Shown: positions 298 to 45,849 of the stretch, piece after piece
Numbering within the stretch: the first letter of the stretch is position 1
Layout: every line of letters begins with the position of its first letter
NCBI GenBank assembly: GCA_026770585.1
Contig: MU646386.1
Span: forward strand, 469,115 to 515,141
DNA: 46,027 nt
From: Baffinella frigidus
Lineage: Eukaryota > Cryptophyceae > Cryptomonadales > Baffinellaceae
Direction: 5' to 3'
Translations under genes and position numbers: made by a program
The notes under the pieces: model-generated
Told to the model about the DNA's origin: nothing
The model's input: the letters and a program-made list of their open reading frames with translations, nothing else
The model's database searches: none

Positions 298-3200
298 CTA
301 AAACACAATTGAAGCAGATTTGGGGCTGGGCAGGACCTGGTTGCCCGTCGCGATGCGCATCCCCTCAGGCCCGTCGGGAGCGAGGACGTCGTACGCGCGG
401 GCGAAGCCCTGCATGATCCCGCGGAGCAGCGCGGCCCGGTTCAGTTCCAGGGACGAAAGGGCCTGCTCAAGGGGGGAGGGGACGCGGCACACGCCAGGGC
501 TTTACTGTCCAGCGTAAAAAAAAACGGGGACGGGGGGGGAAGAAGCGCCTGCATGATGCCGGACAGGAGTACGTCACGCTTCAAGGAGAGCTGCGAGACC
601 TCGCCGTCGGTGTCGAGCGGCGCGATCGCCATCAGGTACGGGTCGCGGTTCGCCGGGAGCTTCACGCCTGGGACCACGGCCCGCGAGGACTTGCCGTCGA
701 TGCTCTGGGGGGGAGGGGAGAGGGGTTAGCCATCGCCATCATGTACGTTTTGCGCGATTGGGGAAGCTTCACCGCGGTTTCCCCCTTTTCGAAAAGCTTG
801 CCGTCGTTGCTCTCGGGGAAGGGGGGGATAGGGGTTAGCGACCCCTCTTCCCCTTTCTCGCCAGGAGGTTCGGTACGGGCCGCACGATTCGGGGAGCTTT
901 CACGCCGCCCGGGTCCACAGAGGACTTACCGCCCTAGCACTGGGAAGGAGGGGGGGGTAACGCACCAGGCCGTACATGGCTCTGGGAAGGAGGGGGTTGG
1001 GGGCTTGATCCGGGGACATGTTTAATTTAGAAGAAAATTATTCCCCAGTTGTTCACAGGATTGGAGGAAGGTTAATTAGGGCCCCAAGTAAATTTAATTA
1101 GTGCCAGCATCCGGTTTGATAGGCTATTTTCTTTGAAATTAAACATGTTCCCGGATGAGGCTGGCACCTCGACCCACTGGAGGTTCTGGCGGGCGATGGC
1201 GCGCCCGACGTCGCGCGCGTCCACCATCTCGATCTCGTCCACCTGCGTTTTGGGTTTTGGGTTTTGGGTTTTGGGTTTGGGGTTTGGGTTTGGGGGTTTG
1301 GGGTTGAGGGTTTCGGGCTTCAGAGATGTGGTTCAGGGTTTAGGTCTATGAAATGTGGTTAAGGGTTTGTGAAATGTGGCTTAGGGTTTGGGGTTTGGGG
1401 TTTGGGGTTTGGGGTTTGGGGTTTGGGGTTTGGGGTTTGGGGTTTGGGGTTTGGGGTTTGGAATTTGGGGTTTCGGGTTGACCTCGTCGCCGAGGTCCAC
1501 GACGGCGCGGTTCAGGCGGAGCACGTCTTCGGCGTACGCTACCGAGTGCCCCTCCTTCAGGAGGTGCTCCCGCACCTGGTTGGGGTTTGGGGTTCAGGCG
1601 TTGGGATTTCGCTGGCGTGGTGTTTACGGTGTGGGGTTTAGGGGTTGCATAGAGGGATAGGGGCTCGCGCACCTTGCTTTAGCGTTCAGGGTTTGGGGTT
1701 AGCACGAAATCTAGTAGAAAAGGGCGACCAAGATACATTTATGGCGAGCCCGATTTTACTCGGGCAGCGCTGGGGGTAGAGTAGGGCGGGTGCCTTGGGG
1801 AAGGGTGCGAGACACTTGGTTGGGTGCGGCGACGCGCTCGAAGAGCCAGCAAAAGCACACACCACTTTCGCCTCTGTGCAGTGTAACTTGTGTACCAAAA
1901 AAACTCTGCACGGGGGGTTGTACGACAAAAGAAGGGCCGTAAAAAAAGAAGGGCCGTAAAAAAGGGGGGGTGCGAAAGGCCGTGAGCATGGAAATGTTCG
2001 GGACCGACCTTGGGGAAGGGCGCGAGGCACTTGGGTGCCACGACACGCTCGAAGAGTCCCAGGAGAGACTTGGGGAGCTTGCGGCCGTCCGGGAAGGACC
2101 GCAGCACCTGCGGCGGGGTTCAGGGTTCAGGGTTTGGGGTTCAGGGTTCAGGGTTTGGGGGGTAGGTTTTGGGGTTTAGGGTTTAGGGTTGATAGTTGAG
2201 GGAATAGTGTTTAGGGCTCAGGGCCCATGGTGCATGGTTTCGCGGTGAGCGGACCTCCTTGCTCTTCAGTAGGGGTCAGTGTTGAGGGTGTAGGGGTTAC
2301 CAGGACGTGGGTGGCGCCATACTCAATCGCCGAGCGATACGGGATCGGCTCGTAGACAAGAGCGTCCACCATAGGCTCAACCTGCGTGTGGGTCTAGGGT
2401 TGAGGGGTTTGTGTGAGGGTTCGGGTTTCGGGGTTCGGCGCCCCATGAGGTACTCGAGGTTTTGGGGTGTGTTGTTTCGGAGTTAGGGTTTGGGGTTTGG
2501 GGTTTGGGGTTTGGGGTTTGGGGTTTGGGGTTTAGGGTTTGGGGTTTAGGGTTTAGTGTTTGGGGTGTAGGGTTTGGAGCGTCGAGAGCAGTGGAGCAAA
2601 AAGCGAAATGCGGGGGGCAACAAAAGGGAAACTGGGCCGCGCAGCAAACGAGTCAGCGAATCATATCCCTTGAGTGCCCATAGGGTGAATTAGGGTGAAT
2701 TTTCACCCTAACTTACCCTAGGCAGGTCCTAGGACTCTACCGTAGAGCGTATGCGCCTACTGGCCACTCAAGGGATGTCCTGGCCACTCAAGGGATGTCA
2801 AATGAAACCGGTTTTCACGAGGGTCCGGGGGGGGGAAATGAGGGTCCGAGAAACTCGACAGGTTGCTTGGATGGTGCTGACCTGGTATGAGTCCTCCCCC
2901 GGCGGGAAGAGGTTAACCGAGCCTTCCTTCAGCCACCTGGTTCGGGTTTAGGGTTTAGGGTTTAGGGTTTAGGGTTTAGGGTTTGGGGTTTAGGGTTTAG
3001 GGTTCAGGGTTTAGGGTTTAGGGTTTAGGGTTTAGGGTTGCCAAGGGTTTAAGGTTTAGGGGGTGGGGTTCAGGGTTCAGGGTTCAGGATTTAGGGTTTA
3101 GGGTTTGGGGTTGAGGATTCCACCTGTCGGGGGTCTTCTTCGCGAGGATCGAAAAGACCATTGCCTGTGTACGGGTTTAGGTTTTAGGTTTTAGGGTTTA

Positions 3201-44000: not shown

Positions 44001-45849
44001 GGAGCCCCGCGTCCGCCTGCTGTGTCAGTGCCTGCCGCGGGAGGATCGGGTTTAGGGTTTGCTCAGGGTTTAGGGTTTGGGGTTTAGGGTGGGAGGAGGA
44101 GGGAAGGGGCAGGTTATGATGCTCGAGTTCAGGTTATGATCCTGGAGATCTCCCGGTGAGTGTCTGCTTCCCTCTTTGCACCTCTCGCGCCACGGTCAAG
44201 TCTAGCTCTGCCTCACTCGGTTGACCGAATATTCTCAAGTCGACGTTCCAGGTGTGCGTTGCAAATTCGTCAACGTTGGAGCGAAACCGACCCCGGGCTC
44301 AGCAACGTGGTGAGCCCCAATAGACTGAGGCAGGAATTGAAAGAGGAGGCAGCCTCTCACCGGGAGAAGCGGGATGGAGTAGGAGTTGGCGATGCCCCAC
44401 ATGTCGAGCAGGCGCTGGCGGTGCCCAGTCCCGAACAGCATCTGCCTCTGTCCGACGAGGGCCCGGAGTTCGCCTGTTGGAGGTTTCAGGGTTGAGGGTT
44501 CAGAGGACGCGCCGAGCAGCCGCTGCCGGTGTCCGGTTCCGAAGAGCATCTGTTGGAAGGGTTGCGGCTCAGGGAGTAGGGTGCAGGGTCCCACGTGTCG
44601 CGCAGCCGCGGCCGCGGCCGGTACCCCGTTCCGAAGAGCATTTGCTTCTGCCCGACGGCCAGGGCGCGCAGCTCCCCTATTGGAGGGGTTGGGGTTTAGG
44701 GTGTGGAGTTTGGAGGGTGGGGTGTAGGGTTTAGGTTTCAGGGTTCAGAGTTTAGAGTTGAGGGTTCTCCAAGCAATGCAACCCTAAACCGTGCACGCCC
44801 TGACCCTCTCGTAGCCTCACCAGCAGCATCAGGCGAGAGCGAGTGCTTCTCGACGAACACGTCGATGCCCCAACGTTTTACTGTCCCTAACATGACCCGA
44901 TTATGCACAGCGATTTCCGTTGCATGAACTTAACATTTTTATTGGTCGCAGTTGAACCTGCAGCGTCCGGAGAGAGGGAGTGCGTGTCAACAAACGCGGC
45001 GATGCCATGACGCTTGACATTTCTCCAGGAAGGAAACCTTGAACCGTAACAAACATCCCACCTCTCTCTCTTGGTCGAAGAGATGTCCAGGGTCCCATCT
45101 CGAAATCAATAGGAAGGTCGCCAGCAGCGTCGGGAGAGAAGATAAGGGTGTATGTACATGCTATTTTAGGCATACACTGATGCTATCTTACGCCTCTGTG
45201 TGTGGACATATTCTGGTAAGTTCCGAGATGAAATTGAACCTGCAGCGTCGGGCGAGAGCGAGTGCTTCTCGACAAACGCGTCGATGCCTGGCGCCAGCGC
45301 CTCCGAGGGGTCGAGAAACGCCATGTTCTCCACCACCGCCACCGAAGGAATTCCGACCTGATGTAGGGGTTGGGTTTCAGGTTTCAGGTTTTATTTTTAA
45401 TATTTACGGTTGCGTTTTGTTTTCAATATTTGGTGTTGTTTGTCAACAAACGTGGCGATGCCTGGCGCGAGTGCCTCTGAGGGGCCCAGAAACGCCAACT
45501 TTTTTCACTGCCGCCACCGAGGGGATCCCCACCTGGATTGCGGTTTGGGGTTTGGGGTTTTGAGGTTCATGGGAAACAACATACGGTGTTGTTAGGCAAC
45601 TCTTATTGAGTTCCTAGCAGACTCCTATTGAGTTCATAGTAAACCCCTATTGACTTGATAGGAAACTCCTGTTGAGTTGATAGTAATCTCGTAGCGGGTA
45701 CTGGGCCACGGCAGGCTGTGGGGCTCCCAGCTTTCCCCGAGGCGGGTCTGCGGCTGTTGACAGGAGCGCACCTTATCGAACATTTCGACGTCCTTCACGA
45801 CGTCCACGGACGAGAGGAACTGTGGCGTCGTGATAATCATATTGGTATG
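40822..45849 (-). CDS. HCF101: HCF101/Mrp-type P-loop Fe-S carrier with C-terminal DUF971 (5'-partial)
   Basis: Only the 3' part (202 codons plus stop) is in the window. Exons: 45849-45772, 45357-45240, 44473-44361, 43785-43681, 43201-43086, 40900-40822; all five junctions agree in phase. [20 protein letters not shown] then [16 protein letters not shown] is the Mrp/Nbp35 core after the Walker B region. [20 protein letters not shown] and [17 protein letters not shown] match the C-terminal part of that core. [13 protein letters not shown] plus [18 protein letters not shown] is a DUF971-like domain, and the protein ends VDGFQ. A C-terminal DUF971 fits HCF101, which delivers 4Fe-4S clusters in plastids, better than Ind1 or Nbp35. 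The P-loop and N-terminal targeting region lie beyond the right edge, so plastid location is inference. The last intron (43085-40901) is long and full of transposon and tandem repeat sequence. Confidence 0.88.
41033..41626. mobile_element. hAT-like non-autonomous element, GC-rich palindromic body
   Basis: 594 bp with perfect 18-bp terminal inverted repeats (CACAGAAGTCGTGCCCGG) and a perfect 8-bp direct duplication, CAAATAAC, at 41025-41032 and 41627-41634. The body is almost entirely CCGGGCACCGG-type self-complementary repeats. An 8-bp duplication and CA-starting ends fit the hAT superfamily. It sits in the last intron of the HCF101-like gene. Open frames in it are low-complexity artefacts. 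Confidence 0.9.
42050..42690. repeat. Five diverged tandem repeats of about 110-140 bp
   Basis: Units start near 42068, 42210, 42320, 42457 and 42597, each with TTGATGCTGGCGGG, TCGTTGGCGGGCGACCGGCT and GTTAGGTTG blocks. They lie in the last HCF101-like intron. No exon was recognised in them. Confidence 0.75.
43975..44045 (-). pseudogene. Upstream copy of HCF101-like exon 4
   Basis: The minus strand repeats [17 protein letters not shown] of exon 43785-43681 nearly exactly, then diverges. Its 3'-half counterpart (LATDIVCE plus GT) is at about 43440-43500. Confidence 0.85.
44500..44680 (-). pseudogene. Two upstream copies of HCF101-like exon 3
   Basis: [13 protein letters not shown] recurs at about 44515-44560. 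[20 protein letters not shown] recurs at about 44610-44680. Both precede the intact exon 44473-44361. Confidence 0.85.
44815..45540 (-). pseudogene. Copies of HCF101-like exon 2 on both sides of the real exon
   Basis: Upstream, about 45455-45540 copies VGIPSVA...LAPGIDAF with frameshifts. Downstream, the exon tail ([13 protein letters not shown] plus GT-like donor) recurs at about 45110-45130, 44955-45010 and 44815-44875. The intact exon is 45357-45240. Confidence 0.8.

Follow-up and report, generated by a model that had tools for sequence, protein, structure and literature searches.

Partial exon copies in Baffinella introns

How do the introns of a gene come to hold broken copies of that gene's own exons? 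The question is raised by a 46,027-nucleotide stretch of DNA (here, the window) from Baffinella frigidus, a member of the Cryptophyceae (Cryptomonadales), in which many exons of five genes are accompanied, on the same strand and in the same gene, by partial copies of themselves. The copies differ in age, and such a series offers a dense record of repair within genes and a test of intron growth. It is also of practical concern, as gene finders can mistake the broken copies for exons, which happened in this analysis. Searches of an open-access library listed no genome with this exon-edge pattern.

The window spans positions 469115-515141 of contig C84, and the assembly searched comprised 382 Mb. 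Five genes, with 72 exons in all, were modelled: guanine deaminase (GDA, 17 exons), patatin (21), RBM22 (15), DP (13), and an HCF101/NUBPL-like gene (HCF, 6). The GDA model agrees exon by exon with P0001, a protein of 466 amino acids from contigs of at most 1,931 nt, a length from which we infer that P0001 derives from transcripts. Because P0001 matches the window exons one by one, splicing joins the exons and leaves the copies out. The patatin protein P0121 (747 amino acids, annotated for Baffinella frigidus at NCBI) and the RBM22 protein P0241 (408 amino acids) map onto the window without a mismatch. All 15 RBM22 exons were taken from P0241. For patatin, 20 of the 21 exons onto which P0121 maps were used together with one exon (6661-6717) from the homologue P0122, and the annotated last exon (92-145) was excluded. 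The DP (Pfam PF08781) and HCF (PF10609) models were spliced by hand.

Each exon was compared by local alignment with the introns of its own gene, and alignments scoring at least 20 were accepted. The antisense strand, the regions of the other four genes trimmed to the length of the exon's own region, and 30 shuffles served as controls. At this threshold, a same-strand partial copy was found for 31 of the 72 exons (43%), with 10 of 17 exons in GDA, 7 of 21 in patatin, 7 of 15 in RBM22, 2 of 13 in DP, and 5 of 6 in HCF. The antisense control reached the threshold for 1 of 72 exons and the regions of the other genes for none; the three antisense alignments, with scores of 18 to 21, all fell in the 516-base patatin exon 1. 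In addition, 33 of the 72 exons scored above antisense, other genes, and shuffles alike. The copies are real and not chance matches. Older copies may exist below the threshold, and four of 49 alignments with scores of 18 to 20 were left out (GDA exon 4 at 29624-29644, patatin exon 12, upstream of patatin exon 21, and RBM22 exon 12). The copies are also local: in a genome-wide protein search of the sequence outside N stretches, 17 of 17 matches to GDA lay in its own locus.

A preliminary description of this DNA had reported copies for nearly every exon. The copies are indeed partial, same-stranded, and local, with the geometry it gave, but the share of exons at the threshold is well short of that claim. 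All the examples that it named in GDA, RBM22, DP, and HCF were recovered, as were patatin exons 2, 3, 9, and 17, but not patatin exon 12 (score 18).

Copies retain one end of the exon

The 45 copies (one place was counted for two alike exons) comprised 22 upstream and 23 downstream of their exons. The upstream copies correspond to the start of the exon, 18 of 22 beginning within 2 bases of it, and the downstream copies to its end, 22 of 23 finishing within 5 bases of it and 19 of these within 2. As the preliminary description had proposed, the upstream copy holds the 5' part and the downstream copy the 3' part: 40 of 45 were anchored at the expected splice site, none was anchored at the wrong end, and none was complete. 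A cruder wrong-side control, based on the first or last 60 exon bases, gave 7 and 8 of 72 exons, where the right side gave 18 and 20, with pieces that overlap in short exons. At the splice dinucleotide, upstream copies had an identity of 0.83 and downstream copies one of 0.89. The copied exon length ranged from 23 to 95 bases and the offset from 65 to 529 bp (median, 169 bp). Identity between copy and exon ranged from 0.66 to 1.00 (median, 0.86), which bears out the earlier suggestion of an ongoing process. Decay of whole-exon duplicates was rejected, as it would leave four kinds of fragments and only two occur.

In the modelled genes the spaced copies derive from exons, as RNA-mediated copying of exon pieces (retrocopies) would have it. 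However, most copies retain the AG or GT, some retain a few intron bases, and they adjoin their own exon. Retrotransposition is unsupported because the copies lie on the same strand and in their own locus and because no copy was seen on inspection to join two exons; we consider it extremely unlikely.

Copies carry coding-type differences and then decay

Gaps were counted in all 45 pairs, and the codon-position tests and the ratio of nonsynonymous to synonymous substitution rates (dN/dS) covered 35 pairs from GDA, patatin, and RBM22, with no HCF or DP pair. Gaps in the copies were frameshifting in 30 of 34 cases and multiples of three in 4. Where copy and exon differed in an amino acid, the nearest orthologue agreed with the exon in 28 of 40 cases, with the copy in 1, and with neither in 11 for pairs of at least 0.85 identity; in the 0.78 to 0.85 class, it agreed with the exon in 17 of 24, the copy in 3, and neither in 4. 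The frameshifting gaps and the siding of the orthologue with the exon therefore indicate that the copies are non-coding now. Tandem exon duplication, including that of mutually exclusive exons, likewise places same-strand copies beside an exon. The Baffinella copies differ from mutually exclusive exons, since 0 of 45 are complete and since they are decayed, with far more frameshifting gaps than gaps that keep the frame.

The youngest pairs differ in a coding manner. For 12 pairs of at least 0.90 identity, dN/dS between copy and exon was 0.16 (0.08 to 0.30), with no indels; for 23 pairs of at least 0.85, it was 0.24 (0.14 to 0.36); and for six pairs below 0.80, it was 0.82, with 17 indels. Third-position changes in the 23 pairs of at least 0.85 were 3.7 times (2.1 to 7.8) the expectation from copy decay alone. 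By reasoning, a copy that starts out identical and drifts freely is limited to a ratio of about 2 at most. In window pairs of about 0.94 or more, 7 of 8 differences were at third positions (p = 0.035).

Such coding-type differences would fit an assembly artefact in which diverged haplotypes were stitched together from Illumina data. The published CCMP2293 assembly, which may not be the one analyzed here, was built from Illumina reads with AllPathsLG and comprises 534.5 Mb with 41% repeats, according to a part of its report (PMC9756366). However, the copies are decayed, as the frameshifting gaps (30 vs 4) and the orthologue (with the exon in 28 of 40 cases, with the copy in 1) attest, and the window contains one run of N (20242-21234) against 45 copies. 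Assembly of two haplotypes was set aside on account of the decay, and an artefact appears very improbable.

Spaced duplications are specific to exons

With short-period arrays masked, 84 direct-repeat pairs within 600 bp were found in the window. An annotated exon was involved in 43 of them; 19 were intron-only and 22 lay outside the modelled genes, although the unmasked sequence available was 6.9 kb for exons vs 21.5 kb for introns. Of the 19 intron-only pairs, 15 were short tandem repeats, 3 paired copies of one exon with each other, and 1 was a low-complexity match. When the window was divided into tiles, local same-strand matches were found for 36 of the 127 tiles in exons, 6 of the 205 in non-copy intron, and 25 of the 131 that lay beyond the modelled genes; the counts for inverted matches were 0 of 127, 14 of 205, and 13 of 131, respectively. 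Since duplications within introns are the harmless ones, the contrast between exons and introns does not come from selection alone.

Similarity falls off past the splice site. At 6 to 10 nt beyond it, identity was 0.43 in 18 upstream pairs and 0.48 in 22 downstream pairs, with unrelated pairs at 0.33 to 0.34; at 11 to 20 nt, it was 0.36 to 0.42. Over both distances, mismatched partners were at 0.26 to 0.34. In a gapped anchored comparison, 2 to 5 of 18 upstream and 5 to 7 of 22 downstream pairs, depending on length, exceeded the 95% level of mismatched partners (mean ranks, 0.19 to 0.27). Over the 15 intron bases next to the splice site, 12 of 40 pairs were similar beyond chance. The similarity of flanks and spacers means that, for some of the copies, intron sequence was also copied or shared.

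Plain tandem duplication of an exon edge and the adjoining intron, followed by very fast divergence of the introns, would account for part of this: some flanks stay similar beyond the splice site, and the spacer resembles the outer flank beyond chance in 12 of 39 pairs. Yet no tandem array with a period above 64 was detected in the window by Tandem Repeats Finder, which misses poorly conserved arrays, and intron-only duplications of this size are missing. Among pairs at least 90% identical, 11 of 13 flanks were no more alike than the lowest 1% of flanks simulated under co-duplication with 0.05 substitutions per lineage, although only 4 of 13 were so unlike at 0.10 (9 of 13 pass). Moreover, the differences in the youngest pairs are already mainly synonymous, which neither tandem duplication nor slippage predicts, and at the locus L004, described below, dissimilar flanks lie beside a 58-base copy with one mismatch. 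Generic tandem duplication with selection was set back, as the introns are without spaced duplications, and we regard plain tandem duplication as having scant probability.

Similar pairs occur at other loci

Two other parts of C84, of which 69 kb was readable and much was N, gave 111 direct-repeat pairs of any origin; two further stretches consisted of N alone, which limits the sample. In a tight search interval, pair ends close to an aligned splice-like motif of the expected orientation exceeded the mirror control for acceptors (25 to 9) and donors (22 to 10; 107 pairs); in a wider interval, the acceptor contrast was just 35 to 28. In a 22-kb part resembling minus-strand genes, 26 of 46 pairs had the expected motif at either end vs 17 in the control. 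In three of four sub-regions, the mismatches clustered in a single codon phase. The phase signal was evident outside the window in pairs of at least 0.93 identity (19 of 24 mismatches, p = 0.006) and in pairs of 0.80 to 0.88, where none of 3,000 shuffles reached it. It was also found in window pairs outside the modelled exons (p = 0.0035), which suggests unmodelled exons.

Seven loci on other contigs (16.6 kb unmasked), chosen by a match to a window repeat and not at random, gave 14 pairs. At the C399 locus (L004), an exon-start copy of 58 bases has 1 mismatch, and the introns upstream of the CAG are dissimilar. At the C265 locus, one putative exon appears to have both a start copy and an end copy, and the four mismatches of the end copy lie in a single phase. 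Inside the spacer of this shadowed exon (L003, 2049-2155), a 52-base block is repeated at 55-base spacing.

Offset joining between alleles as a candidate origin

As the origin of the copies, we tentatively favor, at somewhat less than an even chance, offset (illegitimate) end-joining between alleles that have matching exons and unlike introns, of which the copies would be the scars. Once a break has occurred, one allele's left part would be joined to the right part of the other, 65 to 529 bp out of register. Joins that keep one complete exon with both splice sites would be harmless and would survive; the outcome would be an exon with the broken-off start of its sister exon before it or the broken-off end of that sister exon behind it. 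The same accident within introns would duplicate nothing recognizable, the two introns being different. The copy would then decay like ordinary intron DNA. We read the synonymous differences in the sequences as suggesting that the copy-exon divergence is partly older than the joining and dates from when both were coding. We infer that two alleles were involved, that their introns were already unlike when they were joined, and that the joining was a repair event; we prefer joining between alleles because it explains the exon specificity, the missing duplication of spacers, the early synonymous differences, and, via selection, the geometry.

If this reading is true, the genome is one in which exons are the sole islands of homology for recombination. 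A further proposal, which we put forward with more reserve, is that introns turn over so fast that alleles share exons only, that pairing and repair start in exons only, and that misplaced joins leave exon edges in introns. Introns would then grow by gathering pieces of their own exons, and these pieces would record the past alleles of the gene.

Several observations weigh against joining between alleles. The assembly yielded neither a second allele nor a homeologue: the GDA protein matched its own locus alone (17 of 17) and patatin exon 1 gave a single match. The introns would have to diverge beyond alignment in pairs whose synonymous sites are just 0.1 to 0.2 or so apart. The synonymous excess is modest, the bootstrap fraction with a ratio of at most 2 being 0.018, and pairs of 0.88 to 0.93 outside the window were without a phase signal (p = 0.32). 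Same-strand matches also occurred outside the modelled genes (the 25 of 131 tiles above), where they perhaps mark unmodelled exons. Downstream flanks of pairs of at least 0.90 hold 0.26 to 0.41 identity up to 60 nt. The likeness of spacer and outer flank in 12 of 39 pairs (rank at most 0.05; mean rank, 0.19), in which co-linear outnumbered shifted matches by 24 to 11 (borderline, p = 0.056), would also be yielded by old tandem duplication.

The main rival is break repair within one chromosome: staggered breaks or paired nicks would be filled and joined with filler (telomere-like heptamer arrays and element pieces), producing long target duplications. Selection would retain the events that leave one intact exon, so that surviving duplications span a splice site, and the observed geometry and strand are as such selection would leave them. 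The clearest case is patatin exon 2, where a 55-base block, 98% identical, flanks a (GGTATAT)n array on both sides. The heptamer arrays present in 15 of 45 spacers and the likeness, in 12 of 40 pairs, of the intron bases next to the splice site point the same way, and parts of two reports, on Daphnia (PMC4202315) and the horse (PMC7215372), provide a small-scale precedent. However, repair of this kind predicts spaced intron duplications at least as frequent as exon ones, which is not so in the modelled genes, and young pairs should lack the synonymous excess, yet show it. We consider it a little less probable than joining between alleles. As to mechanism, then, the preliminary description was right about a local origin and about retrotransposition; replication slippage and tandem duplication, which it had put forward, fit less well, and break repair, which it had also named, stays among the candidates.

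Heptamer arrays and directed insertion

Degenerate telomere-like heptamer arrays account for 28% of intron bases, and 54 of the 67 introns contain them. The arrays cover 23% of genic vs 1.2% of other bases (9.3 kb). Read on the sense strand, 79 segments are C-rich, 13 are G-rich, and 6 are neither. In the upstream spacers that hold arrays, 7 of 7 are C-rich; in the downstream ones, 3 are C-rich, 4 are G-rich, and 1 is neither. Our guess is that C-rich arrays upstream of acceptors may act as branch-point or pyrimidine-like sequence. The period-7 arrays include the types TTTAGGG, TTTCGGG, TTTGGGG, GGTATAT, and GTATTGT (for example, at 13174-13603, 24878-25166, and 34247-34385).

The near restriction of the arrays to genes, together with similarity that often ends near the splice site, is in line with an introner-like process directed to exons or splice junctions, in which insertion at an AG or GT junction duplicates target sequence on the exon side. 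The copied length of 23 to 95 bases, however, varies in a way that a fixed target duplication would not, no common spacer element was evident by eye, and the arrays are no nearer splice sites than expected by chance. This origin seems rather improbable. Two related ideas were rejected: insertion exactly at splice junctions, as some pairs in the gapped anchored comparison remain similar beyond the junction, and arrays flush with splice sites as the cause, as there is no enrichment at junctions.

Comparison with known systems

In Daphnia pulex, new introns hold direct repeats of exon ends that part of one report (PMC4202315) attributes to break repair with filler, repeated rounds of which lengthen introns. 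The repeats described there are 4 to 12 bp long and are shared between the adjacent exon and the opposite end of newly gained introns. In Baffinella, by contrast, 23 to 95 exon bases lie inside introns, 65 to 529 bp out of register and with coding-like differences. Mammalian interstitial telomeric insertions place telomere-like arrays at break sites, with target duplication at a few loci, and in the horse 3 of 66 loci are listed with duplication alone (both from part of PMC7215372). In Baffinella, duplications are common, heptamer arrays occur in a third of spacers (15 of 45), and arrays are nearly confined to genes. In a portion of their paper, Rogers and Bendich (2025) take direct repeats at or near splice sites as insertion scars (PMC11782384); the repeats treated in that portion are not partial exon copies within introns. 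Introners are described, in the part of PMC9860276 that concerns them, as gene-directed insertions that reshape introns. The Baffinella copies differ from these in their varying length, and no element family with constant ends was evident by eye in the spacers.

Copies in GDA

GDA lies on the plus strand, and its exons follow P0001. Exon 1 is at 27683-27832, and the gene body from exon 2 to exon 17 spans 28565-37062. Exons 2 to 9 are at 28565-28619, 28787-28851, 29955-30020, 31157-31252, 31613-31678, 31844-31910, 32258-32351, and 32757-32844, and exons 10 to 17 at 33018-33110, 33507-33587, 34181-34245, 34388-34433, 34809-34889, 35383-35490, 36096-36152, and 36940-37062. Exon 2 was entered in the counts from 28562, of which 28565 is the better start.

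Exon 2 has an upstream copy at 28457-28485 (score, 21). Exon 4 is flanked by a copy of its start at 29786-29828 (score, 35; identity, 0.91) and one of its end with the GT at 30308-30359 (39.5; 0.89), and exon 5 by an upstream copy with CAG at 31025-31084 (38.5) and a downstream copy at 31318-31362 (27). A downstream copy of exon 7 is at 32045-32079 (23). Exon 9 has one copy on each side, at 32645-32674 (26; identity, 0.93) and 32897-32940 (28). Downstream copies follow exon 10 at 33221-33290 (56; identity, 0.90) and exon 11 at 33740-33787 and 33798-33852 (20.5 and 29). Exon 14 is preceded by a copy at 34645-34703 (32). The upstream copy of exon 15, at 35223-35282 (56), is 97% identical and is directly followed by AACCCTAAACCC; the downstream one is at 35594-35627 (23.5). 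Two upstream copies of exon 17 lie at 36411-36438 and 36693-36765 (26 and 57), and a copy of its end is found 3' of the stop codon at 37185-37256 (52).

Copies in patatin, RBM22, DP, and HCF

Patatin is encoded on the minus strand. The downstream copy of exon 2 (8348-8428), at 8134-8179 (score, 46), matches 46 of 46 exon bases, with the (GGTATAT)n array between, and the upstream copy is at 8540-8581 (30). A copy upstream of exon 3 (7768-7935), at 7959-8000 (27.5), comes from the exon's interior and has no splice-site anchor. Exon 9 (5576-5690) has an upstream copy at 5874-5932 (47; identity, 0.90) and a downstream one at 5437-5520 (24; identity, 0.66). Further copies lie upstream of exon 10 (5043-5161) at 5203-5236 (28), downstream of exon 17 (2009-2107) at 1794-1849 (33), and, in two places, upstream of exon 20 (600-704) at 729-811 and 872-931 (24 and 23). 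A downstream copy of exon 21 as annotated (337-462), at 146-170 (21), falls where the 3' end of the gene is uncertain. In this end region (92-704), P0121 joins 600-704 to 337-462, and P0122 continues via 543-600; the annotation may have taken in a diverged copy at the end of the gene. The exon at 6661-6717, present in P0122 and missing from P0121, has an apparent GC donor.

RBM22 is also on the minus strand. Upstream copies belong to exon 4 (25971-26035) at 26142-26173 (28), exon 5 (25193-25263) at 25468-25522 (39.5), exon 13 (18621-18715) at 18836-18864 (23), and exon 15 (17623-17673) at 17738-17763 (20). Downstream copies belong to exon 6 (24778-24862) at 24546-24616 (59; identity, 0.92), exon 7 (23803-23857) at 23653-23686 (30), and exon 14 (18321-18459), which has two, at 18153-18175 and 17964-17994 (21 and 23). 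In DP, on the plus strand, exon 11 (14417-14505) has a downstream copy at 14631-14670 (24.5) and exon 12 (15609-15684) an upstream copy at 15440-15496 (30).

In HCF, on the minus strand, exon 2 (45240-45357) has an upstream copy at 45437-45532 (52.5) and two downstream copies at 44958-45013 and 44823-44869 (36.5 and 39). The place counted twice, 44508-44552, matches both exon 3 (44591-44665) and exon 4 (44361-44466), with scores of 26.5 and 28; these two exons are alike, and one may be a copy. Exon 5 (43681-43785) is flanked by copies at 43957-44031 upstream (59) and 43442-43506 downstream (33.5), and exon 6 (43086-43202) is followed by one at 42959-43021 (31.5).

Other features of the window

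Nine of the 22 repeat pairs outside the modelled genes fall in 42.0-42.7 kb. Here, beside the HCF gene, 42011-42670 (plus-strand coordinates) contains several same-strand repeats, which probably represent unmodelled exons and their copies. One coding-like block departs from the same-strand rule, as it occurs twice in inverted orientation (39862-40063 and 40823-41013; 88.6% identical). A sixth gene may lie in the region that the gene models do not cover. Among 360 predicted proteins of relatives, 11 have internal repeats, mostly of low complexity; one of them, P0208, might represent an exon and its copy, but it is an EF-hand protein.

Palindromic elements with GTACCTCGCTCATAAGAAACC-like ends at 17266-17383, 37610-37712, and 40299-40419, recognized by eye and in two of the three cases also by computation, are probably small inverted-repeat elements. 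An inverted-repeat element of about 160 bp at 1003-1161 has many copies in the genome at 87 to 90% identity, and a GC-rich array of CCGGGCACCGG-like palindromes occupies 41033-41626.

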